Of a stretch of 64,000 nucleotides of DNA, positions 30,861 to 62,406 are shown piece by piece. The stretch is from assembly GCA_900169975.1 (NCBI GenBank), contig LT827126.1, positions 372,001-436,000 of the forward strand, read 5' to 3'. Below the pieces are notes generated by a model. That model ran no database searches, was not told where the DNA came from, and saw only the letters and a program-made list of their open reading frames with translations. How positions within the stretch are numbered: the stretch's first letter is position 1; the number at the start of each line of letters is the position of its first letter. The stretch comes from Pseudoflavonifractor sp. Marseille-P3106. GTDB taxonomy: Bacteria; Bacillota; Clostridia; Oscillospirales; Oscillospiraceae. The position numbers were made by a program, and so were the translations under genes.

Positions 30861-31658
30861 TTGCGTATCCTGTCGATTGACTTTGACTACTTCGTAAATC
30901 CCACGGCGCTTCAGCGTGCGTTATATTTCCCCGATGGCGGCCGTGAAATGAGTGATACACTGAATACCTTCGTGTGGGCTGGAGCGTATGCGCACTCCAA
31001 AATCGCCACGAAAAGGGCAGGCAACGAGAAGAACAGCCTGATGCAGGTCGAGCTGCTGAAAAAGCCTCTCCAGGCAATCCATAATATCGTCATGGCCCAG
31101 GGGGATATCTGCTATATGGTGGCAGACAGCCATGCCCATGCCTACGACTTTATCAATGAAAACTGGGATGGAAGTGTGATGGAATTATACAACGTGGACT
31201 TTCATCACGACACCTTTGACGTCGGTGAGGGGGTCCACTGCGGAAATTGGTTGCGCTGGCTTCTGAATGATGGCACCGTAGATGCCGCATACTGGGTCAA
31301 CCAGCCTGATAGTGAATTGGCAGATAATATGACCCAGGTGATTTCACTCTCAGAGCTTCCCAAAACCGGCTATGACCTGGTATACATCTGCCGCTCCGGC
31401 TGGTGGACGCCGCCCCATATGGATGATGCGTTCATCAAATATCTTGCCCGGCCGCTGATTGCGAATAAGAACGGCTGGGAAGTAAAATATCAGAAGGGCA
31501 TTATGGAGAGCCGTTACAACAATGAACTGAAAAACCTGGTAAAGCAGGAATGTATCTTCCGTGACAAATTTCCCAAAGATATGGTCCTGCAGGAGGACCT
31601 CTCGATGCCCAAAATTGACTCATCCGGTGGGAGATGGTATAATAATCCCAGTATTTGA
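30861..31658 (+). CDS. UPF0489-like (arginase-fold) protein
   Basis: 265 residues, TTG start behind GAGGTGAGAG; the frame upstream runs into the promoter. RILSIDFDYF opens the chain, and VDFHHDTFDVGEGVHCGNWL (about residue 105) is the metal-binding type motif of UPF0489 proteins, relatives of arginases and deacetylases. Enzymatic role unknown. Its last codons contain the -35 and -10 of the following family B promoter, and its stop codon lies in the AGGAAGTATC box. Confidence 0.65.
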   Translation: MRILSIDFDYFVNPTALQRALYFPDGGREMSDTLNTFVWAGAYAHSKIATKRAGNEKNSLMQVELLKKPLQAIHNIVMAQGDICYMVADSHAHAYDFINENWDGSVMELYNVDFHHDTFDVGEGVHCGNWLRWLLNDGTVDAAYWVNQPDSELADNMTQVISLSELPKTGYDLVYICRSGWWTPPHMDDAFIKYLARPLIANKNGWEVKYQKGIMESRYNNELKNLVKQECIFRDKFPKDMVLQEDLSMPKIDSSGGRWYNNPSI

Positions 31659-31748
31659 GGAAGTATCATTGCAAAAATCGCATATGAAGATTCCAGCGGC
31701 TTTCGTTTTATGAAAAACGGAAGCCGCTTTTCTATATACACAAACATC
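31615..31748 (+). promoter_or_regulatory. Family B promoter with attenuator-like leader, copy 1
   Basis: -35 TTGACT at 31615, 17-base spacer, -10 TATAAT at 31638, conserved box GAGGAAGTATC at 31657, terminator-like hairpin 31696-31727 (GCGGCTT / AAGCCGC with CGTTTT / AAAACG inside) and T-run, then TATATACACAAACATC at 31733 and AAGGAGG. The promoter lies inside the end of the upstream gene. Confidence 0.85.
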
Positions 31749-31768
31749 ACCATCAAGGAGGAAGCAGT

Positions 31769-32044
31769 ATGAGTAAAAGCAAGAACGAGGCTGACCAGCT
31801 CAGAGAAGGAACCCGTGTCCTCGTGCATGGAGAGGCTGCCTATCTGTGGATTCAAGACTATAATGGTCTGGTTTTCACGATGGGCACAGTCATACGGACA
31901 CCGAAGCCGACGGACAAAAAGGTTCTGGTCATTCTGGATATGCTGGGCGATAAGTGGGATGTGGTCACAACGGTACGCCGCACCGCACTCAAAATCGCCA
32001 GGCAGCCATCCGCAAAGGAGGGCGACGCTCATGTTCACGCTTGA
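31769..32044 (+). CDS. Hypothetical protein
   Basis: 91 residues, ATG behind AAGGAGG. Strand-rich middle (RVLVHGEAAYLWIQDYNGLV) with charged ends. First gene behind family B leader 1. Confidence 0.62.
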   Translation: MSKSKNEADQLREGTRVLVHGEAAYLWIQDYNGLVFTMGTVIRTPKPTDKKVLVILDMLGDKWDVVTTVRRTALKIARQPSAKEGDAHVHA

Positions 32045-32552
32045 GGATGTCCGGCGTGAATATCATCGTCTGGACGGGATTTGTGGAGTCGACACCTCAC
32101 AAATTCCAGTAAAAATCTCAAAACGGGCCAGGGTGCAACGGGGGTGTTGCGTATGCTTCGGGCGTACCGTGAAGGAAATCCGGCTGTCGGATTTCATTTT
32201 CAGCGAACCTGAGGACCTGTTCTATGACACTGCGCGGCACGAATATGCCCATGCGGTAGTCAAACTGCGGCATCCGACAGAACGACATGTACACGATGAA
32301 GTCTGGAAAGCGGTTTGCCTGGAAGTGGGGTGTAATCCAAATCGGCTCACGTCTACCCCGACCGAAGTACGGAGCCAGCGCGAGGACAAGGCCAAATATG
32401 TGCTGACCTGTAAGCACTGCGGGGTCCAGTGGAAGTTCTATCGGAAAACCAAGTTGATAAAATACTTGCTGGCCGGAGGCACAAAATTAGCCTGCAATCG
32501 ATGCGGTCACACAGATTTTGAGTTGGTCCAGCAAGGCCCAAAAAGGAGATAA
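32031..32552 (+). CDS. SprT-like zinc metalloprotease
   Basis: 173 residues, ATG overlapping the previous gene. Residues 60-80 contain ARHEYAHAVV, an HExxH metal motif, followed by HVHDEVWKAVC; the C-terminus has a Cys4 ribbon (CKHC ... CNRCGH). This is the layout of SprT/Spartan proteases, which in eukaryotes digest DNA-protein crosslinks; bacterial members are little studied. The position before a UvrD-type helicase fits DNA repair. Confidence 0.82.
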   Translation: MFTLEDVRREYHRLDGICGVDTSQIPVKISKRARVQRGCCVCFGRTVKEIRLSDFIFSEPEDLFYDTARHEYAHAVVKLRHPTERHVHDEVWKAVCLEVGCNPNRLTSTPTEVRSQREDKAKYVLTCKHCGVQWKFYRKTKLIKYLLAGGTKLACNRCGHTDFELVQQGPKRR

Positions 32553-32558
32553 GTAAAA

Positions 32559-33368
32559 GTGGCAAAGTATCGGATAGGAGTCACGGAGGCCGGTGATGCC
32601 GGTATCGACCTGAACTGGGTCCAAAAGATGGACACAGTGGACGGTGCAGTCGTTATCACAAAGCAAATTACACACGGTCTCCTTGACGCAGTGCTGGAGC
32701 ACCAGAGAAAGCTCATTGTCCATGCTACTCTGACCGGCTATGGCGGGAGCGTCCTAGAACCTTGCGTTCCGACACCGGACGAGCAGTTCGAGGCGGTCCA
32801 GGCTCTAGTGGATAGCGGTTTCCCACAGGAGAAAATCGTTATCCGGGTGGACCCGCTCATCCCAACAGAGAAGGGCCTGGTCAAAGCGCTGCGGGTTATC
32901 GAGACCTGCATGGATGACGGCTTCCGGCGGTATCGGGTCAGCGTCCTAGACATGTACAGGCATGTCAGGAACCGCTTCCGTGCAACAGGACTTCCGTTGC
33001 CCTATGGTGAAAACCAGTTTGCCAGCAGAGCGCAGTTGTCCGAAGCGGATGCAATGCTCCGCGAAGCCGCCGCATACTGGCAGGGGCTGGGCCAACAGGC
33101 AAGAGACCTGCGGATTGAGTCCTGCGCGGAACCATATCTGCGGTATCCTATCCGCTGCGGATGTGTCTCGGCCTATGACCTGGAACTACTGGGCCTGGAT
33201 GCGAGCGACGCCGACTCCATGGGCTACCAGCGGGAGCACTGCATGTGCTACTCCGGGAAGGTAGAACTACTGAGTCACAAACATCCGTGTTCGCATGGAT
33301 GTCTCTATTGCTATTGGAGAGAATGTACGACAAATTTGAAAAAGGAGGGAAGCTCCAGTGGATTATAA
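32559..33368 (+). CDS. DUF1848-like protein
   Basis: 269 residues, GTG start behind AAAAGGAG. C-terminal Cys cluster CGC ... CMC ... HKHPCSHGCLYCYW matches the DUF1848 type, which has a TIM-barrel and a radical-SAM-like CxxxCxxC that may bind an iron-sulphur cluster. The N-terminal half (residues 1-150) reads as alternating strands and helices. Reaction unknown. Confidence 0.72.
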   Translation: MAKYRIGVTEAGDAGIDLNWVQKMDTVDGAVVITKQITHGLLDAVLEHQRKLIVHATLTGYGGSVLEPCVPTPDEQFEAVQALVDSGFPQEKIVIRVDPLIPTEKGLVKALRVIETCMDDGFRRYRVSVLDMYRHVRNRFRATGLPLPYGENQFASRAQLSEADAMLREAAAYWQGLGQQARDLRIESCAEPYLRYPIRCGCVSAYDLELLGLDASDADSMGYQREHCMCYSGKVELLSHKHPCSHGCLYCYWRECTTNLKKEGSSSGL

Positions 33369-35217
33369 AGAATTCTGCGCTAAGTACCACGTGCGTTTGA
33401 ATGACCAGCAGGCCACCGCTGTACAGAGAGTGAATGGAGCCACTTTGCTGCTGGCTGTGCCGGGGAGCGGGAAGACCACGGTCATCGTGGCCCGTACCGG
33501 CTATTTGCTCCATGTGGTGGGCATCGACCCGCGTAATATCCTGACCATCACCTTCACGAAGGCGGCGGCCCGGGAGATGAAGGAGCGGTTTATCAAGAAG
33601 TTCGGGGAGGTCAACGGCTTTGTGCCGCACTTCTCGACTATCAACAGCTTTTGCCTGTCGGTCATCAAGACCTGTGCCCGGGAAAAGCACATTACGATTC
33701 CTGAACTGGTGCCCAACAATGAGCCCATTATCCGGGACATCGCCCGGACGATGATGAGGGATTATCCCAGCGACTCGACCATCAAGTCCCTGGCACAGAG
33801 CATCGGGAAGGTCAAGAACGAACTGATGGAAAACGACCAAATCAAGCAGATTGAGGAGGAAGGTATCGACTTCTACCAGTTCTACCATAAGTACAAGGCC
33901 CATTTGACCGACAACGGCCTCATGGATTTCGACGACCAGCTTCTGATGGCCAACGAACTGCTGGATACATACCCGGACATCCTGGCCCGGGCAAAGAAGC
34001 AGTACCGCTATATCAGCCTGGATGAGGCACAGGACACCTCTCTGGTACAGCACCGCATTGTCCAGAAGCTGGTGGGGAAGGACGGCAACATCTTCATGGT
34101 CGGCGACGAAGACCAAAGCATCTACGGCTCCCGAGGCGCTTACCCGGAGGCCCTGCTCAGTTTCGAGTCCGACTACAACAACGCCAGCATCATCTACATG
34201 GAGACGAACTTCCGCAGTGACCAGAAAATCGTTCTGGCCGCCAACCAGTTCATCAAGCGGAATAAGGAACGCCATGATAAGAACATGCACCCGAATTCCA
34301 CGGAAGAGGGCAAAATCAACTTCGTCCCTCTGCAGGACATGAAGTCGCAGCCTCATATGGTTTTTGACGCCATCAGAAAGGCTCTGGCCACCAAGGACCA
34401 CACTCTGGCGATTCTCTATCGGAACAACTACTCAGCTATCCCCATCATCAATCTGCTGCAGAAGGCGGGGCTGGGTGTCCGTACCCGGGATGCGGCCGGT
34501 ATCTTCCTGACCAACTTCGTGGTCAGTGATATCCTGACCTTCTTCCGTTTCGCCAAGGACCAGACCAATCTCCAGCTCTTCCGGCAGCTCTACTACAAGT
34601 TGGGGCTCTACCTCAAATCCTCAGTGGTTCAGTCCATTGAAGAGACGATGGCGAGGCAGCCTTGCCGTTCCGCGATGATTCCTCTGACCCATTATGGCCG
34701 GATTTCTGCGCAGTCACGGCAAATCCTCCGGTACATGGATGAACTCCCGAAGATGTCCCCGCTGGACGGTATTGACAGTATCCTCTGGAACATTGGATAC
34801 ATGGATAACTGGCTCCAGCGGAAAATTGATGAAGGAGCCTCCGAGTCTTCGCTCATGCTGAAGGTCAATATCCTGAAGCTCGTGGCCATGGAGTATAAGA
34901 CCGTTGATGAGTTCCTGACCGCTATTGACCGAATTCGGGACTATCAGGGCGACCCGGACTCCAATGTGACGCTTTCTACCATCCATTCCAGCAAGGGCCT
35001 GGAGTTCGACCAGGTAGTGCTGGTGGATGTGTTCAACGGCGTTCTGCCTACTATCAGCAACACCAAGGAGGAGAAGGACGAAGAAGAGGAGGCCAGACTG
35101 TTCTATGTGGGAGCCACTAGAGCCAAGCATCAGCTTGACATCGTGGTCCCGAACGCCATGTTTGGCCAAGCACTGGAAGTGTCCGAGTTCTTGAAGGGAT
35201 TCGGCAGCAGCACATAA
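33358..35217 (+). CDS. UvrD/Rep-type superfamily 1 DNA helicase
   Basis: 619 residues, GTG overlapping the previous gene by 11 bases. Motifs in order: LNDQQATAV (Q motif), AVPGSGKTT (Walker A, residue about 35), ITFTKAAAREM (Ia), YISLDEAQDTS (Walker B, about 218), MVGDEDQSIYGSRGA (III), TNFRSD (IV), STIHSSKGLEFDQVVLV (V), LFYVGATRAKH (VI). It unwinds DNA 3' to 5' in repair or plasmid replication. Slightly short for UvrD (about 720), owing to a small 2B region. Confidence 0.92.
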   Translation: MDYKEFCAKYHVRLNDQQATAVQRVNGATLLLAVPGSGKTTVIVARTGYLLHVVGIDPRNILTITFTKAAAREMKERFIKKFGEVNGFVPHFSTINSFCLSVIKTCAREKHITIPELVPNNEPIIRDIARTMMRDYPSDSTIKSLAQSIGKVKNELMENDQIKQIEEEGIDFYQFYHKYKAHLTDNGLMDFDDQLLMANELLDTYPDILARAKKQYRYISLDEAQDTSLVQHRIVQKLVGKDGNIFMVGDEDQSIYGSRGAYPEALLSFESDYNNASIIYMETNFRSDQKIVLAANQFIKRNKERHDKNMHPNSTEEGKINFVPLQDMKSQPHMVFDAIRKALATKDHTLAILYRNNYSAIPIINLLQKAGLGVRTRDAAGIFLTNFVVSDILTFFRFAKDQTNLQLFRQLYYKLGLYLKSSVVQSIEETMARQPCRSAMIPLTHYGRISAQSRQILRYMDELPKMSPLDGIDSILWNIGYMDNWLQRKIDEGASESSLMLKVNILKLVAMEYKTVDEFLTAIDRIRDYQGDPDSNVTLSTIHSSKGLEFDQVVLVDVFNGVLPTISNTKEEKDEEEEARLFYVGATRAKHQLDIVVPNAMFGQALEVSEFLKGFGSST

Positions 35218-35224
35218 CCGCACA

Positions 35225-36208: not shown

Positions 36209-36345
36209 TTGACCCGCTTTGGAATACGTGATATAATAATTTCACAAATCAAGGAAGTATACACACCACTTGTACATATTGGCAAAGACTCAAGACAGCC
36301 TATCCGAAAAACGGAGGGCTGTCTTTTTTTATATTTTTTTTGCAA
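36209..36345 (+). promoter_or_regulatory. Family B promoter with attenuator-like leader, copy 2
   Basis: AAATTGACC with -35 at 36209, 17-base spacer, -10 TATAAT at 36232, box CAAGGAAGTATAC at 36250, hairpin 36292-36325 (AAGACAGCC / GGCTGTCTT) with T7. The TATATACACAAACA box is degenerate here, replaced by a T-rich run. Confidence 0.8.
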
Positions 36346-36358: not shown

Positions 36359-36898
36359 ATGGAATGCGTCAATCAACTGCGGAGGCGGTTATTTCCCGCT
36401 TCTGAACCGGAAAACTACATCGTCCATAACCTTCGGACATCCCTGAGCGTGGCAGAGCATCAGCGCGATACCGCTCTGGACCGCCTGAAACATGCGGAAG
36501 CGGAACTAGCAGGGGCTCAGGCAAGGCATCAGTGCTTAGTCCAGAACCTGCAACTCGTCGCCAAGGGTCAATACCAGGCAGTCTATGAGAACATCAAGGA
36601 CAGCCTCGACCCAGAAGGATGGGCACTCTATCGAGCCGCAGAGCACCGCTGTAAAACCTCTGTTCATGAGTTCTTCTCGACTGAGGATAACATGGGGTGC
36701 TTCGAGGCTATGGATGGAACACAACTCCTTCCTTGGCTGGAGTGCGCTAACTTCGGAACCTGCGACTGGAGGCAGTTGGATTGCCCCGGTGGCTACGAGG
36801 TATCCGAAAACCGGCGTATCAATACGGCCAGCGAGGAGTACATCAATTACAGAAAAGAAATTTTTGAGGAAGCAGTCAATGAGCTGCTCCTTCAGTGA
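36359..36898 (+). CDS. Hypothetical protein with coiled coil
   Basis: 179 residues, ATG behind AAAGGAG just downstream of leader 2. Residues 25-65 are a helical, Ala/Glu/Arg-rich coiled coil. No known domain. The open frame extends upstream through the leader but without a start. Confidence 0.62.
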   Translation: MECVNQLRRRLFPASEPENYIVHNLRTSLSVAEHQRDTALDRLKHAEAELAGAQARHQCLVQNLQLVAKGQYQAVYENIKDSLDPEGWALYRAAEHRCKTSVHEFFSTEDNMGCFEAMDGTQLLPWLECANFGTCDWRQLDCPGGYEVSENRRINTASEEYINYRKEIFEEAVNELLLQ

Positions 36899-42599: not shown

Positions 42600-42628
42600 T
42601 TGACTATAATATTGTTATATGGTATAAT
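42600..42628 (+). promoter_or_regulatory. Family A promoter of sigma factor gene
   Basis: -35 TTGACT at 42600 within ATATTGACTATAA, 17-base spacer ending TTATATGG, -10 TATAAT at 42623 followed by ATTGCT. Confidence 0.9.
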
Positions 42629-42657
42629 ATTGCTACTCTATGGGGGAGGGGATTACC

Positions 42658-44034
42658 GTGGGGCGCAAGGGAAAACCCAAGGTCGAATTGACCGATGAAA
42701 CTATCCGTAAATTGCCTGCGGCCGCAGTGATTGAGAAACACCGCAGCCTGCGGGTCCTCCTGAAAAAAGGGCTGAATGAGGGGAAAATCCAGTCCGACGC
42801 CTTGCTGAAGATACTCAATACTATCAATCTCGATGAAGAGAGCGAGGCCGAGGTCTACGGTGCCATAGACACCTTGGGTATCCCTATCAGCACATCTGAG
42901 GAAGAAAACCCCTCCGAGGATGGGCAAGGGCCGCCGGAGGCAGAGCTCGCGGACGACCTGATACCAAAAGCAGATGACTTCCCTTTGGATGACTCGGCCG
43001 CCTACTTCTTCCATGAAATGGCTGAAATCCCCCGGATGACACGGGAGGAGACCCTGGAGATGGCCAAAAGGGTAGAGGCCGGGAAAGCGGCGGAAGCAGA
43101 GCTTCAGGAGAAGGGGGATTCACTGACCGGCGATGAACGCTCCAGCCTGGATAAAATCATAAAAAAGGCGAAAGCGGCCAAGGACCGAATGATAGAGTCA
43201 AATATACGCCTGGTCGTCTCAATCGCCAGAAAGTACGCTCCCAGCACCGCCTCTATGACTATTCTGGACCTCGAACAGGAAGGCGTTTTCGGCCTGATGA
43301 AGGCTGTCGACCGCTTCGACTATAAGAAGGGCTTCCAATTCTCCACCTACGCTACCTGGTGGGTGCGGCAGGCCATTACAAGGGCTATGGCCGACCAGGA
43401 TAAATGTGTCCGTATTCCAGTCCACATGGTGGATACCATCACAAAGGTCCAAAAGATAACCAAATCCCACGAAAAGTCCCTGCAAGACATTGACGAAGAG
43501 GCACTTGCCATCCATATCGCGGGCGGGGAGGACAGATGGTCTGAACTAGGGCCGCGACAGAAGAAAAAATACCGTGACAAAATCCATGAGGCCATTCGGT
43601 TAAGTAAAAACAGTGAGCCGGTGTCCCTGGACCAGCCAGTAGGGGACGAAGAGACTGCCGATACTGTGGTAGGGGATTTCATCCGGGATACCAATACCAA
43701 CATCTCACCGGAGGTCGTGACTGACCGTCTCCTCCTATATGAACGCCTCGACGCCCTCCTGATGACCTTACCGGCCCGGGAGTCAAAGGTGATTCGCCTC
43801 CGCTTTGGCATGGAGGATGGAAAGCCACGCACGCTGGAGGAAATAGGCCGGGAATTCCGTTTGACACGTGAGCGCATTCGCCAAATCGAGGCGAAGGCTA
43901 TGAAAAGGCTGAAATCTCCCTATATCTCAAAGCACCTTGGCAGTGACGCGGAGGATATTCTGGGTACGTACGAGGAGCCTCCTGACCACTTTGAAGAATT
44001 GGATTGGAGTGACCTCGATGATAGTCAGTTTTGA
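42658..44034 (+). CDS. RpoD-like (sigma-70 group 1/2) sigma factor
   Basis: 458 residues. GTG 42658 follows GGGGAGGGG; ATG 42640 lies at the presumed transcript start without a ribosome site. Region 1.2 (DSAAYFFHEMAEIPRMTREETL), region 2 (MIESNIRLVVSIARKYA, LDLEQEGVFGLMKAVDRFDY, FSTYATWWVRQAITRAM), region 3 and region 4 (RESKVIRLRFGMEDGKPRTLEEIG, LTRERIRQIEAKAMKRLK) are all in order. The N-terminal 110 residues resemble region 1.1 of housekeeping factors. Carrying a full primary-type sigma factor on a mobile element is uncommon; with family A promoter upstream it may control the element's own genes. Confidence 0.93.
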   Translation: MGRKGKPKVELTDETIRKLPAAAVIEKHRSLRVLLKKGLNEGKIQSDALLKILNTINLDEESEAEVYGAIDTLGIPISTSEEENPSEDGQGPPEAELADDLIPKADDFPLDDSAAYFFHEMAEIPRMTREETLEMAKRVEAGKAAEAELQEKGDSLTGDERSSLDKIIKKAKAAKDRMIESNIRLVVSIARKYAPSTASMTILDLEQEGVFGLMKAVDRFDYKKGFQFSTYATWWVRQAITRAMADQDKCVRIPVHMVDTITKVQKITKSHEKSLQDIDEEALAIHIAGGEDRWSELGPRQKKKYRDKIHEAIRLSKNSEPVSLDQPVGDEETADTVVGDFIRDTNTNISPEVVTDRLLLYERLDALLMTLPARESKVIRLRFGMEDGKPRTLEEIGREFRLTRERIRQIEAKAMKRLKSPYISKHLGSDAEDILGTYEEPPDHFEELDWSDLDDSQF

Positions 44035-44403: not shown

Positions 44404-44479
44404 CCGGGTGTAGCGCAGTTGGTAGCGCACATGGTTTGGGACCATGGGGCCGGGAGTTCGAACCTCCCCACTCGGACCA
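44404..44479 (+). tRNA. tRNA-Pro (anticodon TGG)
   Basis: 76 bases with encoded CCA. Acceptor CCGGGTG / CACTCGG (one G-U), D arm GCGC AGTTGGTA GCGC, anticodon stem CATGG / CCATG with loop TTTGGGA (anticodon TGG), T arm CGGGAGTTCGAACCTCCC, then ACCA. It would read CCN codons. Such tRNAs on mobile elements can support their codon usage or replace tRNAs cut by host defences. Confidence 0.95.
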
Positions 44480-44974: not shown

Positions 44975-45109
44975 TTGACGTTCAACCCTTCGAAATGGTA
45001 CAATAAATGCGTCAAGTAAGGAAGTATCTATCTGAAACAGCATCATTCTAAAGGTTCAGACAGCACACCGATAACAGGTGTGCTGTCTTTTTTATATACA
45101 CAAACACCA
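44975..45109 (+). promoter_or_regulatory. Family B promoter with attenuator-like leader, copy 3
   Basis: -35 TTGACG at 44975, 18-base spacer ending AAATGG, -10 TACAAT at 44999, box AAGGAAGTATC at 45018, then CTGAAACAGCATCATT, hairpin 45058-45088 (AGACAGCACACC / GGTGTGCTGTCT) with T6, and TATATACACAAACACC at 45094. The hairpin is a perfect 12-base stem. Confidence 0.9.
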
Positions 45110-45135: not shown

Positions 45136-45741
45136 ATGTATAAAGCGAAGGAAATTGAGGGAGTTGTTTACCGAGTAAAGCATTTGACAGGCGGATGGTT
45201 GGTCGAAGTGCCGGAAACGGAGGACCCCATTGAGGCCCTGGCCACGTTTGCGGCCGAAAAGTCAGTCAAAGGCTACATCATCACGTCTGTAACACGCATT
45301 TTTGACTGTTCGAAAGACACTCCACGCATGGCTGTTATCTCCACCAAAGAGTTCAAATCCGAAGTCAAGCGTCTGATGGATGAGAAAGCGTATTATGAGC
45401 AGGCAGAGACTTACCCTGAGACCATTGAGGAACTGACTGCCCGTGCGGAGGCCGCCGGATGGAGTGTTGACCGAGACGAAGACGGTGAGCAAATTCGCCT
45501 GTCGTTTGGGCAGTCCACTCCGGCAGGCGAGGACTTCTGGTTTGACGCTTGCGGAGAGGACGTAGAAGAAGTTGTGGACAGTGTGAAGCGGTACGCTTTG
45601 GATTTCGACTGTGATGAACACGTCAGAGAGGTCATGAACGGCCAGGGTGCGCCTGATTTGACGACGCTGGTCGAGGATGCCAAGGCTATTCAGGAGATGC
45701 TGGATGAGCTGGCAGGCAGCCTGATGCGCAAACTGATTTGA
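45136..45741 (+). CDS. Hypothetical protein
   Basis: 201 residues, ATG behind AAAAGGAGG, first gene behind leader 3. Soluble, acidic; residues 85-155 alternate strand and helix around the stretch WSVDRDEDGEQIRLSF. No known domain. Confidence 0.62.
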   Translation: MYKAKEIEGVVYRVKHLTGGWLVEVPETEDPIEALATFAAEKSVKGYIITSVTRIFDCSKDTPRMAVISTKEFKSEVKRLMDEKAYYEQAETYPETIEELTARAEAAGWSVDRDEDGEQIRLSFGQSTPAGEDFWFDACGEDVEEVVDSVKRYALDFDCDEHVREVMNGQGAPDLTTLVEDAKAIQEMLDELAGSLMRKLI

Positions 45742-50930: not shown

Positions 50931-51066
50931 TTGACTTCTATCGTAATAGATGGTAGGATATTACTATCAAACAAGGAAGTATCTCATTAAACAAACATCA
51001 ATCTATCAGTTTCAAGCAGCTAGGTCTTTAAACGGGCCTAGCTGCTTTTTATATATACACAAACAT
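50931..51066 (+). promoter_or_regulatory. Family B promoter with attenuator-like leader, copy 4
   Basis: -35 TTGACT at 50931, 17-base spacer ending AGATGG, -10 TAGGAT at 50954, ACAAGGAAGTATC at 50971, then TTAAACAAACATCAAT, hairpin 51014-51047 (AAGCAGCTAGG / CCTAGCTGCTT) with T5, and TATATACACAAACAT at 51052. Confidence 0.9.
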
Positions 51067-51084: not shown

Positions 51085-51615
51085 ATGAAGTACAAATTCT
51101 TTCAAGGCGGAGTCACTGAGGTGCCGGTTGAGCACCTGATTGAGGACTACCAGAACCTAGCCCAGACGAAAGCAACTCTGAGCAGATGCATCCAGGCATA
51201 TGCGCGGAAACTGCCCGAGGCTCTTGCCTACGATGAGCGGGCCAAAGAGTCTCTGGCAGCGCTCCAGGATGCCAGTGAGACGATTTCCACGGTTATGGAT
51301 TGTCTTGCGGACAGCATCGACAGCCACACCACTGCCCCGGAAGGACTGAAGTTCCAACCGAGCGTCACATCTGTGATTGCGATGGGGTGTAAAACCGGCA
51401 TCATTGCCCGCGAAGATGGAAGCGATATTCGCTGCGCTGGCGGTATGGATGTGTCCACAGTCTACCCTGGGTGTACCGAGCGGTGCCCGTACAAAAATAA
51501 GTGCGAGCAGGAACTTTGCCGCATCCAACTGGAAACCGGAGCTTTTTATACCGGGGACAGCAGGGAGTCCGATGAACTGCTGGACAGCATCGAGCGGTAT
51601 CCAGAGAAGGAGTGA
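51085..51615 (+). CDS. Hypothetical Cys-containing protein
   Basis: 176 residues from ATG 51085 behind AAGGAGG; the frame is open upstream through the leader but without a credible start. Helical residues 10-80. CTERCPYKNKCEQELC at about 145-160 is a compact Cys cluster. First gene behind leader 4. Confidence 0.62.
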   Translation: MKYKFFQGGVTEVPVEHLIEDYQNLAQTKATLSRCIQAYARKLPEALAYDERAKESLAALQDASETISTVMDCLADSIDSHTTAPEGLKFQPSVTSVIAMGCKTGIIAREDGSDIRCAGGMDVSTVYPGCTERCPYKNKCEQELCRIQLETGAFYTGDSRESDELLDSIERYPEKE

Positions 51616-52573: not shown

Positions 52574-52663
52574 ATGTTCGCTGTCATCAAGAAGAACGAG
52601 GGTCTGGCCAAAGTCATTGATGCCCCTTCCCTCAAGGCGGCCTGTCAGTCACCCCACGAATAA
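52574..52663 (+). pseudogene. 5' fragment of a small gene cut by the IscB element
   Basis: ATG behind GAGAGGAGAG opens a frame that reads MFAVIKKNEGLAKVIDAPSL and on to a stop inside the inserted element. On the far side, bases 54300-54330 read FDDADAKE and stop in a plausible continuing frame, followed at once by the next ribosome site. The original gene thus seems split, perhaps with loss of some sequence. Confidence 0.55.
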
Positions 52664-52958
52664 ATTCGGGGGCTTGAAAAGCCTTGACTGACTACCCTAA
52701 GTGCTTCGGGCACTACGTTATCCGAGAATGCCAGCCGGGCCACAATAGTGGTCTGGCTGGCACATAGGCACCGGCGGGCGTGATATCCGAACCTGCCGCA
52801 CTGCGGCGCATGGTTAAACAGTCCTGATGGGTAGGGGCAGTGCTGTGCGCGGAGAAACCTCGGAATAACATTGGGGACGGATACCTGACGGGCTTCGGCC
52901 CGGGCAGTTTTCTGCGTAGTAGCTGCCAAAATGTGAGAAAGAAAGGAGGCGCACTGAC
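52646..52958 (+). ncRNA. IscB omega RNA
   Basis: 295 bases without a gene, directly upstream of iscB, the position of its guide RNA. It opens with GTCAGTCA, which pairs with TGACTGAC about 45 bases later, enclosing a CCCCACGAATAAATTCGGGGG hairpin-like stretch; further GC-rich inverted repeats follow (for example CCAGCCGGGCCACAA / GTGGTCTGGCTGG). The guide should be the roughly 16-20 bases before GTCAGTCA, that is the flank of the insertion. Confidence 0.75.
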
Positions 52959-54239
52959 ATGGTGTATGTACAGAACCGGCTGGGACAGCCGCTGATGCCC
53001 ACGAAGGACCATCGAAAGGTGCGCCTTCTGCTGGACAGCGGAGCGGCGGTGGTCGTAAAACGCACCCCGTTTACCATCCGGCTGACAACAAAAGCAAAGT
53101 CCTACGTACAGCCAATCATTTTAGGCGTGGATGCTGGGAGCAAGACCATCGGCCTGTCGGCGTCCACGGAGACAGAGGAACTGTTTGCCGCTGAAGTCAC
53201 ACCCCGGAACGACGTAGTGGATAACCTGTCCACCCGCAGGGAATTCCGCCGTTCTCGGCGTAACCGGAAGACGCGATACCGCGAGCCTCGATTCAACAAT
53301 CGGGTCCGCAGCAAACACAAGGGCTGGCTTGCCCCTTCCGTGGAGGTCAAAATCCAGGAGCACATTACCGCTGTCAAGCGTGTGTGCGCCCTGCTCCCGG
53401 TGGGAAAAATCGTTGTGGAAACAGCGGAGTTTGACCTGCAGCTTCTGAAAGCGGTGGAGGCCGGGCTTCCGGTCCCACGGGGAGAGGACTACCAGAAGGG
53501 TGAGATGCTAGGCCACTACAACATCCGGCAGTATGTCCTCTGGCGTGACGGTTACACCTGCCGGTGCTGCGGCACTCATGGGAAGGGCGTGAAATTCCAC
53601 GTCCATCACCTGGAGAGCCGGAAGACCGGCGGAAACGCCCCAGATAACCTCGTAACCCTGTGTGATGGGTGCCACAAGAAGTTCCACAAAGGGATAATCA
53701 CCCCGGATATTCTGAAAAAGAGGAAATGTCGTTCCACCAGGGATGCCGCCTTTATGGGCATTATGCGTAAGACCTTGATGGAACGTCTCCGGGCGGAACT
53801 CGCTATCCAGGTTGTCGAGACCAAAGGGTATATTACCAAGTACACCAGAGTAGAACTTCTGAAACTGGACAAGACCCACACCAACGACGCCCTGGCCATT
53901 GCTCAGGGGCGGAGAGGGTTTGGAGTCGAGGAACTAACGACGATTCCGCAGTCTGATTACATCTACCGCATCCGCCCAGTTCGCCACCATAACCGTCAGC
54001 TCCACAAGGCGACCATCCTCCCGGGAGGCATCCGTAAGAGCAACCAGGCCCCACGCTATGTGCGGGGGTTCCGACTGTTCGACAAGGTATCCTATCTGGG
54101 GGAAGATTGCTTTATTTGGGGCAGACGCAGCAGTGGGAGTTTCCTGCTCAAACTGCTGGATGGCACCAAGGTCAAGGATGGGGTTGGTTACAAGCGTATC
54201 AGTCTTCTGGAACGAAGCGCAAGCTACTTAATATCTTAA
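52959..54239 (+). CDS. iscB: IscB RNA-guided nickase/nuclease
   Basis: 426 residues, ATG behind AAAGGAGG. Domain order is that of IscB, the ancestor of Cas9: short N-terminal PLMD/RRXRR part (residues 1-45), RuvC-I (ILGVDAGSKTIG, catalytic Asp about 54), Arg-rich bridge helix (RREFRRSRRNRKTRYREPRF), RuvC-II (KIVVETAEFDLQLL, Glu), HNH (CRCCG ... FHVHHLESRKTGG ... CDGCHKKFH), and RuvC-III (HTNDALAIAQ). All catalytic residues look intact. With the omega RNA it should cut DNA matching the guide. Confidence 0.95.
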   Translation: MVYVQNRLGQPLMPTKDHRKVRLLLDSGAAVVVKRTPFTIRLTTKAKSYVQPIILGVDAGSKTIGLSASTETEELFAAEVTPRNDVVDNLSTRREFRRSRRNRKTRYREPRFNNRVRSKHKGWLAPSVEVKIQEHITAVKRVCALLPVGKIVVETAEFDLQLLKAVEAGLPVPRGEDYQKGEMLGHYNIRQYVLWRDGYTCRCCGTHGKGVKFHVHHLESRKTGGNAPDNLVTLCDGCHKKFHKGIITPDILKKRKCRSTRDAAFMGIMRKTLMERLRAELAIQVVETKGYITKYTRVELLKLDKTHTNDALAIAQGRRGFGVEELTTIPQSDYIYRIRPVRHHNRQLHKATILPGGIRKSNQAPRYVRGFRLFDKVSYLGEDCFIWGRRSSGSFLLKLLDGTKVKDGVGYKRISLLERSASYLIS

Positions 54240-55434: not shown

Positions 55435-55567
55435 TTGACGCCCCTTCCGAAAAATGATACCATACTTACAGTAGTTTAAGGGAGTATCACATACTGAAAC
55501 CATATTGCTTTAGCAATCAGCCAGCATCCTCAAACTTGAGGGTGCTGGCTTTTTATATACACAAAAC
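55435..55567 (+). promoter_or_regulatory. Family B promoter with attenuator-like leader, copy 5
   Basis: AAATTTGACG with -35 at 55435, 17-base spacer, -10 TACCAT at 55458, box AAGGGAGTATC at 55478 (one change), then CTGAAACCATATTG, hairpin 55519-55550 (AGCCAGCA-TCCTCAA / TTGAGG-GTGCTGGCT) with T5, TATATACACAAAACG at 55554. Confidence 0.87.
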
Positions 55568-55587: not shown

Positions 55588-56391
55588 ATGTACTATCTGG
55601 TAGACCTGAAGGAGCAGAAGACTGAAGTTTTCAAAAGCAAACTGGACCTGCTATACTACCGCTTCAGCAAGCCGGAGCATCGCCCCCTGTGGTGGGCTCC
55701 TGACGAAATCATCTATCGGATGATGGACTTCATTGAGCTGAACGTGACCGGCAAGGATATTGTTACGGGCTTTGAGAAGGTCCCCGGTAAGTTTTGGTTC
55801 TATGGTGGAACCGCCTTCCCGTGCTACGAGAAGGTGGCCACGCTTCGCCGCTACATGGTCACGGATGAGCAGGGGAGACGTATCGACATCCGCACTTGGC
55901 TCCCGGAAATTGCCCTTGTCCAGTCCGGCAAATACCGGCCCACCCACAAGGCGGCTGATTCCAAGGGGCCTGCGTATCGTCGGGAACCCTGTGGTCAGGG
56001 CCGCAAACAGCACTTCCACAGAGTAGGCTGTCCTGCTATGTGGCACCGCTCTCTGGCTGAAGCCATGGGTGAAGAAGACCTGGCGCTGGAGGCGGATGTC
56101 CGGCCTATGCGGGACCACTCTGGTATCCGTAAACGCGGCATCAAGGACGAGACCTCCTTTGAGCGGGCTGAGCGCCGGGCGAGTCGTAGCTGGACCTGCT
56201 CCAAGTGCTGGAAGGACCAGTCCAAGGCTGGCCGCCAGTGGGCCAAGCATAAGAAGGCCAAAAACGGCCGGTTCCTGCGTGAGAGCATCGACAACCTGCC
56301 GCTGCTCTACGCGCACCCGGAGTTTGCGGATGACGATTACTGCTTCCGCCTTCTGATGATGGAATTCATTTTGTGGGGACGTACCTACTAA
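55588..56391 (+). CDS. Hypothetical basic protein
   Basis: 267 residues, ATG behind GAAGGAG. Residues 125-245 are strongly basic with a WTCSKCWKDQSKAG Cys pair, suggesting nucleic-acid contact. C-terminus acidic (YAHPEFADDDYCFRLL). First gene behind leader 5. Confidence 0.62.
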   Translation: MYYLVDLKEQKTEVFKSKLDLLYYRFSKPEHRPLWWAPDEIIYRMMDFIELNVTGKDIVTGFEKVPGKFWFYGGTAFPCYEKVATLRRYMVTDEQGRRIDIRTWLPEIALVQSGKYRPTHKAADSKGPAYRREPCGQGRKQHFHRVGCPAMWHRSLAEAMGEEDLALEADVRPMRDHSGIRKRGIKDETSFERAERRASRSWTCSKCWKDQSKAGRQWAKHKKAKNGRFLRESIDNLPLLYAHPEFADDDYCFRLLMMEFILWGRTY

Positions 56392-57650: not shown

Positions 57651-57802
57651 TTGACCTTGACCAGCTTAAAATGGTATAATTCTTCTATCAAACAAGGAAG
57701 TATCTATCTACCAACAAATCGAAATATCAAACTCACAGTCAGTCCTTTTACGATTCTGTAAGGGGACTGGCTGTTTTTTATATATCAAATTTATATACAT
57801 GA
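57651..57802 (+). promoter_or_regulatory. Family B promoter with attenuator-like leader, copy 6
   Basis: AATTTGACC with -35 at 57651, 18-base spacer ending AAATGG, -10 TATAAT at 57675, ACAAGGAAGTATCTAT at 57692, hairpin 57735-57773 (17 pairs with three G-U, GGGGACTGGCTGT on the 3' side) with T6, then a variant box TTTATATACATGAACG at 57790. Confidence 0.88.
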
Positions 57803-57817
57803 ACGGAGGAAAATAAA

Positions 57818-58147
57818 ATGCGTAACGCACAGACCACAAAACAGGTAACTTTTGATGAGGCTATCCGCCTGATGGAGGGTATCCGTCGCTCTAATTTGGT
57901 GATGGGATACCACTTCATCAACTACGCCAATGATGAGTGCATCATCCGTCCCACTAAGGTCTCGGCAATCTATCGGGACTGGTATTGGGAGTGCGATTGC
58001 TGTCCGCCCAACGATACGGTCGTCACGCACCTGCACATCCTGCTGCCGTCACATGTTGCTCTCGACGTTGTGGAGTCTGTTAAGTTTGGCACCCTGATGG
58101 AGGCCATCGAAGAGTTCACCGTCGGCAGCAAGTACCGTGATTCTTAA
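57818..58147 (+). CDS. Hypothetical protein
   Basis: 109 residues, ATG behind CGGAGG. A CDCC cluster at about residue 65; otherwise mixed alpha/beta. First gene behind leader 6. Confidence 0.6.
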   Translation: MRNAQTTKQVTFDEAIRLMEGIRRSNLVMGYHFINYANDECIIRPTKVSAIYRDWYWECDCCPPNDTVVTHLHILLPSHVALDVVESVKFGTLMEAIEEFTVGSKYRDS

Positions 58148-58160: not shown

Positions 58161-58181
58161 CAATAAAGGAGGAGTAGACCT

Positions 58182-58685: not shown

Positions 58686-58698
58686 GGGAGGTTTCTTT

Positions 58699-58908
58699 AT
58701 GTGGTACGTATTGGTGTCTCATTACATTGGCCCTGGCGTTGCGCTCCAGCGTGGATGGCGGGAGTGTGAGAACGAGGAACAGGTACGAGATGCTATCGCC
58801 GAAGTTCTGGAACGTGGGGTCTGTGCGGATGAAATAACGGTTCTATGTGTTTCTGAGCCAGAAAATACCATGTCGGTCGATGAATTCCGGGACAAGCTCG
58901 GTATCTAA
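58699..58908 (+). CDS. Hypothetical small protein
   Basis: 69 residues, ATG 58699 behind GGGAGG. Short strand-helix-strand chain; no motif. Confidence 0.58.
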   Translation: MWYVLVSHYIGPGVALQRGWRECENEEQVRDAIAEVLERGVCADEITVLCVSEPENTMSVDEFRDKLGI

Positions 58909-58921
58909 ATCAAAATTTTTG

Positions 58922-58984
58922 AAAAGGAGGACGGCCTTCGCATTCCAGGGCATAAGCCTTGGGATGCAAGGGCCAATTTTTATG
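58922..58984 (+). promoter_or_regulatory. Ribosome site and start separated by hairpin, case 4
   Basis: AAAAGGAGG at 58922, two bases, hairpin 58933-58974 (GGCCTTCGCATTCCAGGGC / GCCTTGGGATGCAAGGGCC), AATTTTT, then ATG 58982. Folding leaves about nine bases. The T-run after the stem also resembles a terminator, so attenuation is an alternative reading. Confidence 0.68.
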
Positions 58985-59869: not shown

Positions 59870-59872
59870 ATC

Positions 59873-60262
59873 ATGCCGAGCACACCAGATTTAATCATGG
59901 AGCTGAACGACTTCGCCAACCACTGCGGGTATTTCTTCAATGCCTGTATGAAGGATGGCATTATCGCTAACAACGGCTATAACTGTTCACACCCAGACCA
60001 AGACGAGACGGTAGAGGACGAAGACAGCGGCGAGTCCGTTGGGTGCTGCTATTGCTGGAGCTGTCCGCTCGGGTATCCGCCGAACGCCAAAGACCTCGTT
60101 GACTGCGGCATCCTAAGTGAAGAAGATGCCCGTGCAGACTACTTCGATGAACTCTCTGGCGAGTATTTTTCGGCAGTAGACTACATCGTCGTGTCGGATG
60201 AGGATACCATCCGGCGGCTGCGGGAGGCCGGGATAACCGGACTGGCCGTAAGCACCAATTAA
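59873..60262 (+). CDS. Hypothetical Cys-containing protein
   Basis: 129 residues, ATG three bases after the previous stop behind GAGGAGG. GCCYCWSCPLGYPP near residue 60 may bind metal. No named domain. Confidence 0.6.
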   Translation: MPSTPDLIMELNDFANHCGYFFNACMKDGIIANNGYNCSHPDQDETVEDEDSGESVGCCYCWSCPLGYPPNAKDLVDCGILSEEDARADYFDELSGEYFSAVDYIVVSDEDTIRRLREAGITGLAVSTN

Positions 60263-60286
60263 AACTTGAGAGGGAGGAAAAAGAGC

Positions 60287-60529
60287 ATGAAGGAACACGC
60301 GGAAATCACGGTGCGGGATATCGCCAACCGCACCAGTAGTCACATGGTCATTAAGGACAACGGCAACGGCTCGACGCTATGGAGCGGATACCAGTATAAG
60401 GTGCTGGAATCCATCTATGCGGACGCCGTGTGCGAGAACGTCACTGTCCAGTCGAACCTCCTTATCTTGTGGCTGCACCACGATGAGGTGGAGCGGGTCA
60501 CACGCAAGGCGGCGACAGCCCGACTCTAA
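60287..60529 (+). CDS. Hypothetical small protein
   Basis: 80 residues, ATG 60287 behind AGGGAGG. Strand-rich; no motif. Confidence 0.58.
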   Translation: MKEHAEITVRDIANRTSSHMVIKDNGNGSTLWSGYQYKVLESIYADAVCENVTVQSNLLILWLHHDEVERVTRKAATARL

Positions 60530-60533
60530 ATGT

Positions 60534-60567
60534 AAGCCCCTAAGCACTTAAGTGCTTGGGGGCTTTT
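60534..60567 (+). terminator. Terminator built around palindrome, site 5
   Basis: AAGCCCC and GGGGCTTTT flank AAGCACTTAAGTGCTT (60542-60557), so the element's recurrent palindrome forms the inner stem of a terminator. It lies 20 bases upstream of the -35 of family B copy 7. Confidence 0.75.
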
Positions 60568-60577
60568 CTTTCCGTTT

Positions 60578-60764
60578 TTGACACTCTATCTTGAAAAGTG
60601 GTATAATGAAACCAAATTTAAGGAAGTATCAGTCAGTTATCACAAAACATTATCTTCGAAAGACGACGCAGCTATCTATAACGATGGCTGCGTCTTTTTT
60701 TGAAACCTCCGGGCACAGACCAGACTTTTAGCCTGATTGGTGTCCGTTTATATACACAAACATT
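60578..60764 (+). promoter_or_regulatory. Family B promoter with leader, copy 7, two hairpins
   Basis: -35 TTGACA at 60578, 18-base spacer ending AAGTGG, -10 TATAAT at 60602, box AAGGAAGTATC at 60620, hairpin 60665-60694 (GACGCAGCTATC / GATGGCTGCGTC) with T7, then an extra weaker hairpin (GGGCAC ... GTGTCC, about 60711-60745), then TTATATACACAAACATT at 60748. Confidence 0.87.
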
Positions 60765-60789
60765 CAAAACTTTCAAGGAGGAATCACAA

Positions 60790-61029
60790 ATGAACATCTA
60801 TGCTATTTTCGCCCACCCCAACAACGGCCGGGATTCCGACCAGGCAGAGGCTAAGGACCTTACCCCTGGAAAGAAATACACCCTGCAAAACGCCTTCGTT
60901 GGAAGGAGCAATACGCGAGTGTTGCTTAAGGACATCACGGGGTATTTTAACTCCGTCTTGTTCGATTTCGTAGATGAACAGGGAAATCCTGTCAACATCT
61001 ATGAGATGCCTCGGTTTAGGGCCTACTAG
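60790..61029 (+). CDS. Hypothetical small protein
   Basis: 79 residues, ATG behind AAGGAGG. Strand-rich with RVLLKDITGYFNSVLFDFVD; possibly an SH3-like fold. First gene behind leader 7. Confidence 0.6.
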   Translation: MNIYAIFAHPNNGRDSDQAEAKDLTPGKKYTLQNAFVGRSNTRVLLKDITGYFNSVLFDFVDEQGNPVNIYEMPRFRAY

Positions 61030-61042
61030 GGGAGGGACCATT

Positions 61043-61074
61043 GCGGTGTCTGTTCCTAACTGAACAGGCACCGC
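61043..61074 (+). terminator. Hairpin, weak terminator
   Basis: GCGGTGTCTGTTC / GAACAGGCACCGC with one mismatch, followed by TTTGCT. Confidence 0.5.
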
Positions 61075-61139
61075 TTTGCTCCATTCCGGTCAATTTCATC
61101 AAAAATTAATCTTAAAAATTTATAAGGGAGGAATTTTAC

Positions 61140-61580
61140 ATGCTAACCAGAATGGAGCAGGCTGACTTCACATGGACATATCGTGACCTGTGGGGCGGAA
61201 CGAAAATTGGTATGGACACCCATGCTCTCAGAAGAAGCATTGGCCGTTTTTATCAGTTTATGTCCTTTGAACTGCTGAGCAGCAATATCAGGGACATCTA
61301 CCTGAAAGGCGGAGACGACTTGGAAGAGTTGGTTATGGCCATTCCCTTCGGCGGGAAATTCGTTGTGTTCGACGAAAAGACGAGAATGGCTATATTCGCG
61401 GCCATCGACTTCAATGAAAGGACGAATCTCAATGAAGTTTTCGTCCATTCCGTCTATGTACTCGGCGAAGGCGAGAACGACCGTGTTTTCTGCGAAGCAG
61501 AGAATAAAGGACTCTTTAAGGTCCTTGAGGATGGCTCAGTGCAGGAGAATCCTCTGGAACTTGTCCGAAAGCCGAAATAA
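61140..61580 (+). CDS. Hypothetical protein
   Basis: 146 residues, ATG behind AAGGGAGG. No motif; mixed alpha/beta. Confidence 0.6.
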   Translation: MLTRMEQADFTWTYRDLWGGTKIGMDTHALRRSIGRFYQFMSFELLSSNIRDIYLKGGDDLEELVMAIPFGGKFVVFDEKTRMAIFAAIDFNERTNLNEVFVHSVYVLGEGENDRVFCEAENKGLFKVLEDGSVQENPLELVRKPK

Positions 61581-61619
61581 GACTGGCACTCTGCAATCAC
61601 AGGGCGCCAGCCTTTTTTT
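61580..61619. terminator. Terminator between convergent genes
   Basis: CTGGC ... GCCAG stem with T7 on the plus side. It ends the gene at 61140 and faces the end of the minus-strand gene. Confidence 0.65.
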
Positions 61620-62124
61620 ATTTTGCCACGTCCCGGGACAACTGCATGGCATACTCTCGAAGCTGCACACGGAAGTTCTCCTCGCCCTCCTGGTGGGCTT
61701 TGAGTACATCAAAGAGGTGGGGGAGCTTCCCGGCCAGGTAGCAAAGTGAAACACAAGTCTCAGACGCGATACCGCAAAGGTAGTCGTAATTTCCGGCATG
61801 GGCCAGCCAGGCATCCGCTTTGGCTACGGAATCCTGGGTGGGGATATAGAACCCATCCTGCCCATCAGACTCAGTATGGGCGGTCTGGAATTGCGCAGTG
61901 CCTCCAGTGCTCTGCTTAGCGAGGGACAGTCCGCACTCGCTAAGAATCGACAGGATTTCATTGACTGACGCGGCAGGGAAGTTCCGAATCGCGGCGAGTT
62001 CCTCCTGCGTCAGCGCGGCAATATCGCCAATTTTCCGAATCCCGGCCCGCATAAGGGCATTATACGCCGGGGGAGACATGGCCAGCAGGCCAATCGAGGT
62101 ATCAGCAGAAAAGCAGTTATCCAT
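61618..62124 (-). CDS. Free-standing RNA polymerase alpha C-terminal-domain-like protein
   Basis: 168 residues. The ATG at 62124 has AAGGAGG upstream on its strand; longer versions to 62235 run through the promoter. Residues 8-70 follow the alpha-CTD: SIGLLAMSPPAYNALMRAGI, RKIGDIAALTQEELAAIRNF, SVNEILSILSECGLSL, including the helix-hairpin-helix that contacts promoter UP elements and regulators. The N-terminal assembly domain of alpha is absent. The C-terminal 95 residues are helical and unknown. It might bind DNA or compete with host alpha at promoters. Confidence 0.75.
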   Translation of the reverse strand: MDNCFSADTSIGLLAMSPPAYNALMRAGIRKIGDIAALTQEELAAIRNFPAASVNEILSILSECGLSLAKQSTGGTAQFQTAHTESDGQDGFYIPTQDSVAKADAWLAHAGNYDYLCGIASETCVSLCYLAGKLPHLFDVLKAHQEGEENFRVQLREYAMQLSRDVAK

Positions 62125-62188
62125 TATGGAGAAAACCTCCTTATCATCTATAATATTCGGGGCGTACTGGGTTCCCTTTATATTATAT

Positions 62189-62217
62189 ATTATACCACAC
62201 AATGATAAATAATTCAA
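62189..62217 (-). promoter_or_regulatory. Family A promoter, minus strand
   Basis: Read on the minus strand: TTGAAT (62217-62212) within ATATTGAATTATTTA, 17-base spacer ending TTGTGTGG, -10 TATAAT (62194-62189). Drives the alpha-CTD-like gene; back-to-back with family B copy 8, so the 307-base gap 62125-62431 is a divergent control region. Confidence 0.85.
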
Positions 62218-62218
62218 T

Positions 62219-62240
62219 ATTAAGTGCTTAAGCACCTAAG
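62219..62240. repeat. GTGCTTAAGCAC palindrome, site 6
   Basis: GTGCTTAAGCAC at 62224-62235 plus a further CTAAG, lying between the minus-strand family A promoter (touching its -35) and family B copy 8 (39 bases before its -35). Confidence 0.75.
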
Positions 62241-62274
62241 AACTTTTTTACCCAATACAGCCCCCCTTCGCAAT

Positions 62275-62406
62275 TTGACTTACATCTCAGAACGTGGTAG
62301 CATGAATCTATACAGCAAGGAAGTATCTATCAAACAACATACCATACCAAATTCAGCAGTCATTCTTTCGAACAAAGAGTGGCTGCTTTTTTATATATAC
62401 ACAAAC
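62275..62406 (+). promoter_or_regulatory. Family B promoter with attenuator-like leader, copy 8
   Basis: AATTTGACT with -35 at 62275, 17-base spacer ending ACGTGG, -10 TAGCAT at 62298, CAAGGAAGTATCTAT at 62316, AAACAACATACCAT, hairpin 62355-62386 (AGCAGTCATTCTTT / AAAGAGTGGCTGCT, two G-U) with T6, TATATACACAAACG at 62393. Confidence 0.9.

Follow-up and report, generated by a model that had tools for sequence, protein, structure and literature searches.

Why should dispersed operons each begin with a promoter-like site that is followed, ahead of the first gene, by a terminator-like hairpin? The question is raised by a stretch of 64,000 nucleotides (the window; C20:372001-436000, contig LT827126.1) of the genome of Pseudoflavonifractor sp. 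Marseille-P3106 (3.12 Mb, 20 contigs), which lies in an insertion of about 252 kb, hereafter the element. An earlier note on the window had described eight such leaders, and all eight are present where it placed them, each with a -35, a spacer, a -10, a short box and a hairpin with a T-run. The leader proves to be a real repeated device under selection, with 30 copies in the insertion, every one on the same strand (+). We give a probability of about 0.5 to the reading that these copies would form a regulon of some 30 promoters held by promoter-proximal termination and freed by a factor that reads the box. Taken as a whole, the interpretation of the earlier note is partly supported. The window leaders are the following (window coordinates).

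31615..31745, +, leader 1: -35 at 31615, -10 at 31638-31643, tail at 31733-31745, gene start at 31769
31657..31667, +, box of leader 1, GAGGAAGTATC
31695..31732, +, terminator-like hairpin of leader 1 (31695-31728) with its T-run, dG -22.7
36209..36340, +, leader 2: -35 at 36209, -10 at 36232-36237, hairpin at 36292-36325, no tail motif, gene start at 36359
36251-36261, +, box of leader 2, AAGGAAGTATA
44975..45105, +, leader 3: -35 at 44975, -10 at 44999-45004, box at 45018-45028, hairpin at 45058-45088, tail at 45093-45105, gene start at 45136
50931..51064, +, leader 4: -35 at 50931, -10 at 50954-50959, box at 50973-50983, hairpin at 51014-51047, tail at 51052-51064, gene start at 51085
55435..55566, +, leader 5: -35 at 55435, -10 at 55458-55463, hairpin at 55519-55550, tail at 55554-55566 (1 mismatch), gene start at 55588
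55478-55488, +, box of leader 5, AAGGGAGTATC
57651..57804, +, leader 6: -35 at 57651, -10 at 57675-57680, box at 57694-57704, hairpin at 57735-57774, tail at 57792-57804 (2 mismatches), gene start at 57818
60578..60761, +, leader 7: -35 at 60578, -10 at 60602-60607, box at 60620-60630, hairpin at 60665-60694, displaced tail at 60749-60761, gene start at 60790
62275..62406, +, leader 8: -35 at 62275, -10 at 62298-62303, box at 62317-62327, hairpin at 62355-62387, tail at 62394-62406, gene start at 62432

In these leaders the -35 reads TTGAC (8/8) and the -10 reads TAnnAT (8/8) with TGn before it, the two being separated by 17 (five leaders) or 18 bases (three). The box, RAGGRAGTAT in all eight, begins 12-14 bases past the -10. 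The second box that had been placed after the hairpin, here called the tail (TATATACACAAAC), holds for seven of the eight at up to two mismatches (exact in five, one mismatch at 55554, two at 57792). It was not found within this limit for the 36209 leader; it begins 4-7 bases past the T-run start in five leaders and is displaced in the 57651 and 60578 leaders, to 18 and 54 bases. The loose AAACA-CATC block described between box and hairpin does not stand as a box, as columns 11-29 past the box start, aligned without gaps, agree in at most 18 of the 30 copies.

The number of copies, eight in the earlier note, is 30 for the whole element. A pattern for promoter plus box (up to two box mismatches), run over 318 kb around the window, gave 26 matches on the + strand, one on the - strand (its box two letters off) and none on the reversed sequence; four further copies have a weaker -35 (334543, 336258, 340080 and 457106). 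Further copies, whose absence that note took as grounds for dropping its reading, amount to 22, plus two orthologues. Across the 3.12 Mb genome there are 16 exact matches to AAGGAAGTATC, always on the + strand and inside the element (C20:255478 to 478036), and 1+1 to the reversed pattern. Among the 30 boxes, 26 of which were collected with two mismatches tolerated anywhere, eight of the ten positions are invariant (30/30) and the other two are A in 25 copies and G in 5; the eleventh base is A, not C, in the leader with its box at 36251. The copies share one order: a sigma-70-type promoter, the box, an unstructured spacer of about 30 bases, the terminator-like hairpin and, in 19/30 (at most two mismatches), the tail. 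Gene starts were called with a home-made hexamer script, and near leaders at least two of the called starts seem misplaced (distances of -29 and 71 from tail to start); on these calls, 24/30 boxes sit 107-124 bases upstream of the start codon and the tail ends 13-30 bases before it in 17 of the 19 tailed copies, the displaced tails at 60749 and 57792 included.

Two readings of the box were set aside. As the ribosome site of a leader peptide it would fit poorly: its position 5 is A in 30/30 copies, so that a perfect AGGAGG is never there, and an ATG lies within 45 bases of the box start in only 6/30. The sequence CAAGGAAGT resembles the CsrA consensus, but five boxes read GGG, not GGA, and a CsrA site was set aside (no search for CsrA was made).

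Specificity was examined with a scan that ignores the box and asks for a promoter, then a hairpin with T-run, then a ribosome site and start codon. It returned 21 sites in the 244.7 kb of element sequence scanned, all on the + strand and all belonging to the leaders, which we call class I. Eight comparison sets of 40-248 kb returned 1, 1, 0, 1, 0, 0, 0 and 0 sites; these were stretches of 46-80 kb from five genomes (G154, G125, G118, G020, G145), 40 kb at a second transfer region of the genome itself (G000), a 248 kb Subdoligranulum plasmid and 65 kb of host flanks.

Few relatives of the leader were found. Covariance-model searches, which scored only 9-12 first-look candidates per genome, matched 2 of 300 genomes in a family sample, namely G000 and an Intestinimonas metagenome-assembled genome (MAG; G287), and 8 of 394 in an order sample, G000 and seven others. 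These seven matches (40.6-45.2 bits) look like ordinary A+T-flanked terminators without a full box and were rejected. A pattern search gave 2/400 and 3/394 genomes, G000 each time plus single isolated sites; its spacer was too long, so that it recovered 7/30 copies in G000 and 0/2 in G287, and fragments could escape it. The single matches, in G291, G303 and G310, were rejected as isolated, their surroundings showing no leader by eye (that of G303 was viewed on the other strand). The pattern scan of the genome collection demanded an exact box and an exact tail, and viral contigs gave 0 matches to the exact box-tail pattern. Over 20 stretches around related VirB4 genes, the best result of model R1 was one match with E 0.46. 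The Subdoligranulum plasmid and a Vescimonas record encode a related transfer ATPase, but neither has a model match below E 0.1, and their 0-2 loose promoter-hairpin pairs per strand lack the box. The leaders are likewise absent from those stretches of other relatives that were examined. The Intestinimonas contig (NZ_JAPFEA010000023.1, 22,782 bases, taken to be contig C54 of G287) is 89-97% identical to a region of the element in the four longest stretches and holds two leaders, orthologous in place to 476579 and 478026. Compared by eye, the 478026 leader and its orthologue differ in the extended -10, spacer, loop and tail and not in the box or stem.

A hairpin with T-run was found in 29/30 leaders by a permissive script (-17 to -27 kcal/mol), including 8/8 in the window. 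We aligned the hairpins of 25 distinct leaders, which represent 24 of the 30 copies plus one from G287; the 60578 leader, at 43.2 bits, fell under the limit, and leader 4 is the top match of the covariance model (106.5 bits). In this alignment 94.8% of the stem cells form standard pairs, and 12 of 14 stem pairs have changes on both sides, which bears out the claim that the hairpin sequence differs from copy to copy while its pairing is kept by compensating change. The covariation score is 0.80, against 0.25 for shuffled alignments and 0.12-0.17 when the register is slid. Because the sequences had been aligned to the model itself, the result is biased towards the structure. The base of the stem is well conserved and the upper stem varies freely.

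Geometry and folding were analysed on 26 leaders, the four with irregular or missing hairpins being dropped. The distance from box to T-run start is narrowly held, at 66-80 bases (mean 73.7, standard deviation 3.1). Spacers of 23-35 bases accompany hairpins of 30-40 bases, with a correlation of -0.31 that is not significant (permutation 0.067). Compared with shuffled sequence, the 5' segment has slightly less structure (mean z +0.52), and its pairing with the 5' arm of the hairpin, as an antiterminator would require, is worse than shuffled (mean z +0.61). Two-hairpin devices, that is a classical attenuator or riboswitch, were thus rejected because no such alternative pairing was found. The pairing between box and tail that had been proposed to enclose the hairpin does not exceed what shuffled boxes give (mean z 0.06). 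With the 5' segment unstructured and pairing with neither arm nor tail, the box acts, if at all, as a linear sequence. A search of the window against Rfam, judged at the gathering score, matched only a HEARO RNA and a tRNA and none of the eight leaders.

An unstructured 5' segment followed by a terminator hairpin is also the usual shape of a small RNA. The product could then be the short RNA itself, some 30 terminated RNAs of about 80 bases whose shared single-stranded 5' motif would serve as sponge or guide for an RNA-binding partner of host or element, and 30 copies would make titration possible. We consider this quite unlikely: a sponge does not need the constant placement of 24/30 boxes before a called start codon, and a further -35/-10 promoter would hardly fit into the short gap past the T-run.

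We return to the preferred reading of conditional termination. The most sensible role for a strong terminator that separates a promoter from its operon is a conditional one and, as no competing fold was found, the remaining reading is a factor acting on the polymerase via the box. Starting from the observed promoter-like sites, box, terminator-like hairpins, narrow spacing and lack of an alternative fold, we picture the following course. Polymerase would start about 6 bases before the box, copy the box and then the unstructured spacer, and terminate by default on reaching the hairpin, some 80 bases downstream of the start. Initiation near the box and a default stop are also what the earlier note had proposed, and we infer both from the letters. 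A factor, most likely encoded by the element, would recognise the linear box in the nascent RNA or in the early-transcribed DNA and alter the polymerase so that the hairpin is passed, and about 30 operons would come on together. By script, 37 terminators lie at operon ends (three adjacent duplicates among them) versus 12 inside operons, which suggests that read-through would be local rather than processive. As a possibility that goes further, we tentatively propose that the leaders represent a novel form of antitermination regulon. A single factor encoded by the element, perhaps assembled from RNA polymerase parts (the element has its own sigma-70 and two proteins with an alpha C-terminal domain), would read a linear 10-base box shortly past the start and, on excision of the element from the chromosome or its entry into a new cell, lift termination at some 30 dispersed operons together.

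Several findings weigh against conditional termination. Operon-end terminators outnumber internal ones, so that a processive antiterminator would be both superfluous and inconvenient. Four of the 30 leaders have an irregular hairpin (289429, 334564, 476579) or none (336279), and the tail is missing from 11/30 at up to two mismatches. No NusG paralogue was found, the sole PF02357 match in the genome lying on contig C19, outside the element. Most genes behind the leaders are without a name, and one class I leader has the gene for a second VirD4-like coupling protein behind it, so that the functional split from the second promoter class described below is not clean. Finally, the role of the box could be limited to promoter escape.

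This last point is at the core of an unlikely alternative, constitutive damping, in which leaky terminators would lower the expression of costly genes and the box would set promoter escape or the transcript start, with no regulator at all. The box does lie just past the inferred start, where the initial transcribed sequence matters; internal terminators are few, and no factor was found, one family (NusG) having been searched. A pure initial-transcription effect, however, is not expected to fix eight of ten box bases in 30 copies, nor to hold the box-to-T-run distance so closely while hairpin sequences diverge.

For the factor demanded by conditional termination, the element offers the following candidates.

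42640..44034, +, full-length RpoD-like sigma factor, 464 aa, with a class II promoter at 42600
61618..62124, -, RNA polymerase alpha C-terminal domain (CTD) protein, 168 aa
L012:5472-5843 (C20:300472), second small alpha-CTD protein

The sigma factor is 45% identical to the host's own RpoD-type protein, and the alpha-CTD gene at 61618..62124 lies behind a - strand class II promoter (near 62197) and diverges from leader 8. These proteins, and the small proteins without assigned function, are candidates only. The sigma factor also bears on another explanation, to which we assign a low probability: the tail (TATATATACACAAAC) would serve as a further promoter consisting of a -10 only, recognised by a factor of the element in the manner of T4 late promoters, and the hairpin would insulate it from the upstream promoter. 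The tail keeps its distance to the called start in 17/19 cases even when displaced from the T-run. It occurs in just 19/30 leaders, though, and the upstream promoter and the box would be left without an evident role.

Conditional termination would concern one of two promoter classes. About 30 class II promoters on the + strand, and a few on the - strand, are TTGAYTAATATAATNATAAATGGTATAATATTG-like with a conserved A+T-rich spacer (TTGACTAATATAATNATAAATGGTATAATATTG-like); no box and no leader hairpin was seen with them, and they are probably a second regulon. The collection allowed up to 8 substitutions, and 7 of 37 hits that overlapped class I sites were removed.

4481, 7089, 15904, 19200, 30814, 42600, class II promoters of the window (24 more lie elsewhere in the insertion)

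A palindromic repeat of the GCACTTAAGTGC type lies within 130 bases upstream of 12/30 class I leaders versus 2/30 class II promoters (Fisher p 0.005). Initiation might accordingly be the controlled step, with a repressor or activator bound to DNA at the box or at these palindromes and the hairpin as a secondary guard against leakage. This, too, seems to us improbable, as the box lacks palindromic symmetry, 18/30 leaders have no such repeat and promoter-proximal hairpins in 29/30 would be unexplained. In the element as a whole, the GCACTTAAGTGC-type motif has 67 matches, 57 of them intergenic (window 47159, 50886, 60544 and others); outside it, 73 kb gave 2 matches.

Assigned by nearest upstream promoter, 169 genes (median 131 aa) fall to class I and 105 (median 200 aa) to class II. 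The earlier note had placed small genes of unassigned function downstream of the leaders. This is so for the first genes behind seven window leaders, all seven without a Pfam match at 0.001 when scanned singly (the eighth, 62432-62821, was scanned only as part of a group); the operons as wholes also hold genes for a SprT-like protein and a UvrD-type helicase (leader 1) and a cytidylate kinase (leader 3). Of 140 class I genes (at least 75 aa, whole in one locus), 139 went through Pfam group scans and the last was scanned separately; 46 of 91 class II genes were scanned as a group. The class I genes that could be named include some for nucleotide metabolism, recombination and DNA methylation. 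Among the matches listed, class I has NrdD, radical-SAM, dUTPase, NT5C, ERF, YqaJ, RecD2, UvrD, cytidylate kinase, DNA methylase and several toxin-antitoxin domains; class II has ParA, Cas5/Cas7/Csd1, topoisomerase, ligase, HU, sortase, pilin and type IV secretion system (T4SS) proteins, and most T4SS names found sit behind class II promoters. Roughly, class I would comprise transfer or establishment genes and class II maintenance genes and the transfer machine. A defence-system group scan of gene group A4 gave mostly helicase models of a single protein. One protein of group A5 (class I genes, L016-L018) matched a phage ProQ C-terminal-like domain (E 8.6e-10), and none of ten A5 members scanned singly was the one matched. 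The genes Cas5, Csd1 and Cas7 (type I-C-like; C20:249314-252895, L009) lie downstream of a class II promoter.

The insertion is delimited by the two parts of spoIVA.

ending near C20:237290, first part of spoIVA, profile positions 1-150 (profile match)
beginning near C20:489505, second part of spoIVA, profile positions 150-492 (profile match)

The roughly 252 kb between them, which contain the window, are one insertion or possibly the result of more than one event. The description that fits them best is that of a very large integrative conjugative element: the split spoIVA marks a chromosomal insertion, and a CD1115-type VirD4 coupling protein scored above its cut-off as a T4SS component. Several VirB4 models matched the VirB4-type ATPase, each below its curated cut-off; homologues of it occur in 18/200 family genomes, its own included. 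ParA, Cas5/Cas7/Csd1 and two T4SS-pilin domain proteins are also encoded. Among 48 element proteins scanned, one has resolvase/recombinase domains; general Pfam group scans of part of the element's genes listed no relaxase family. L013:9254-10513 was ruled out as a serine recombinase, NCBIfam giving a DGQHR domain. When 36000-60000 of the window (24 kb) was compared with phage records, nothing closely similar was found, and the matches of this piece to plasmids were all below 100 bases. The insertion (C20:237290 to 489505; L009, L018) may be a sporulation-gene intervening element that has to be excised for sporulation. A HEARO RNA (124 bits), followed by an RRXRR/HNH open reading frame that we take to be IscB-like, occupies window 52644-54239 within the leader 4 operon. 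The element also carries a tRNA-Pro (TGG) gene (window 44404-44479), and a tRNA-like 10-mer, GTGGGTTCGA, is repeated in five intergenic regions.

On large conjugative elements, hundreds of genes have to be kept silent during integration and yet expressed in concert on transfer. If conditional termination is true, a regulon of about 30 operons on a mobile element would be based on promoter-proximal termination, to our knowledge the most extensive attenuation regulon on such an element. The linear box and the divergent yet paired hairpins would offer a test set for factor-driven terminator bypass.

With RfaH and ops, Bacteroides UpxY and LoaP, a short leader element common to several operons recruits one factor and polymerase passes. 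The box resembles no ops element that we know of. The leaders are like those of NusG paralogues in that a short element is shared by many operons (for LoaP, see PMC12691694, available in part). A factor of the LoaP/RfaH/UpxY type was rejected, as PF02357 yields no NusG paralogue in the genome. Lambda Q is loaded near its promoter and then reads through a nearby terminator. Promoter-proximal loading and a nearby terminator would be common to both systems, whereas 30 sites here face one late promoter there (Q-type antitermination: PMC7171158, partial text). No Q-type conserved element was seen between -35 and -10, columns -37 to -23 agreeing in at most 19/30 copies in a register set on the box, with 17- and 18-base spacers not realigned. 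The put and EAR antiterminators are structured RNAs upstream of a terminator, unlike the 5' segment here (z +0.52, see above). In the literature searched, and among the papers listed for the motif letters, no description of such a leader was seen, subscription papers being mostly outside the coverage; the parts appear ordinary, and their arrangement was not found described.

Two systems of the pLS20 family come closest. As far as the available portions of PMC8708921 describe them, EGeRS1 and EGeRS2 are each one regulatory sequence repeated before several dispersed, variable operons, and as here a repeated regulatory sequence on a Gram-positive conjugative element reveals a regulon. EGeRS1 is given there as a region of 400-600 bp that contains multiple inverted repeats and lacks a strong sigma-A promoter, unlike the present leader, which measures about 130 bases in most window copies and has a TTGAC-17/18-TAnnAT promoter, a linear box, a terminator and 30 copies. 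EGeRS2 is given as a promoter under a repressor (PMC8708921); compared with its operators, a palindromic repeat lies upstream of only 12/30 leaders here. The conAn system of pLS20, in the accessible parts of PMC8955417, is located at the head of a single operon, within which it overrides more than 20 terminators. By description it shares antitermination logic on a Gram-positive conjugative element with the leaders; it differs in that in the present element a separate promoter and hairpin precede every operon, with few terminators found inside the operons. Among the systems seen, the pLS20 establishment regulon is thus the nearest concept (PMC8708921), and conAn the nearest mechanism on a conjugative element (PMC8955417).

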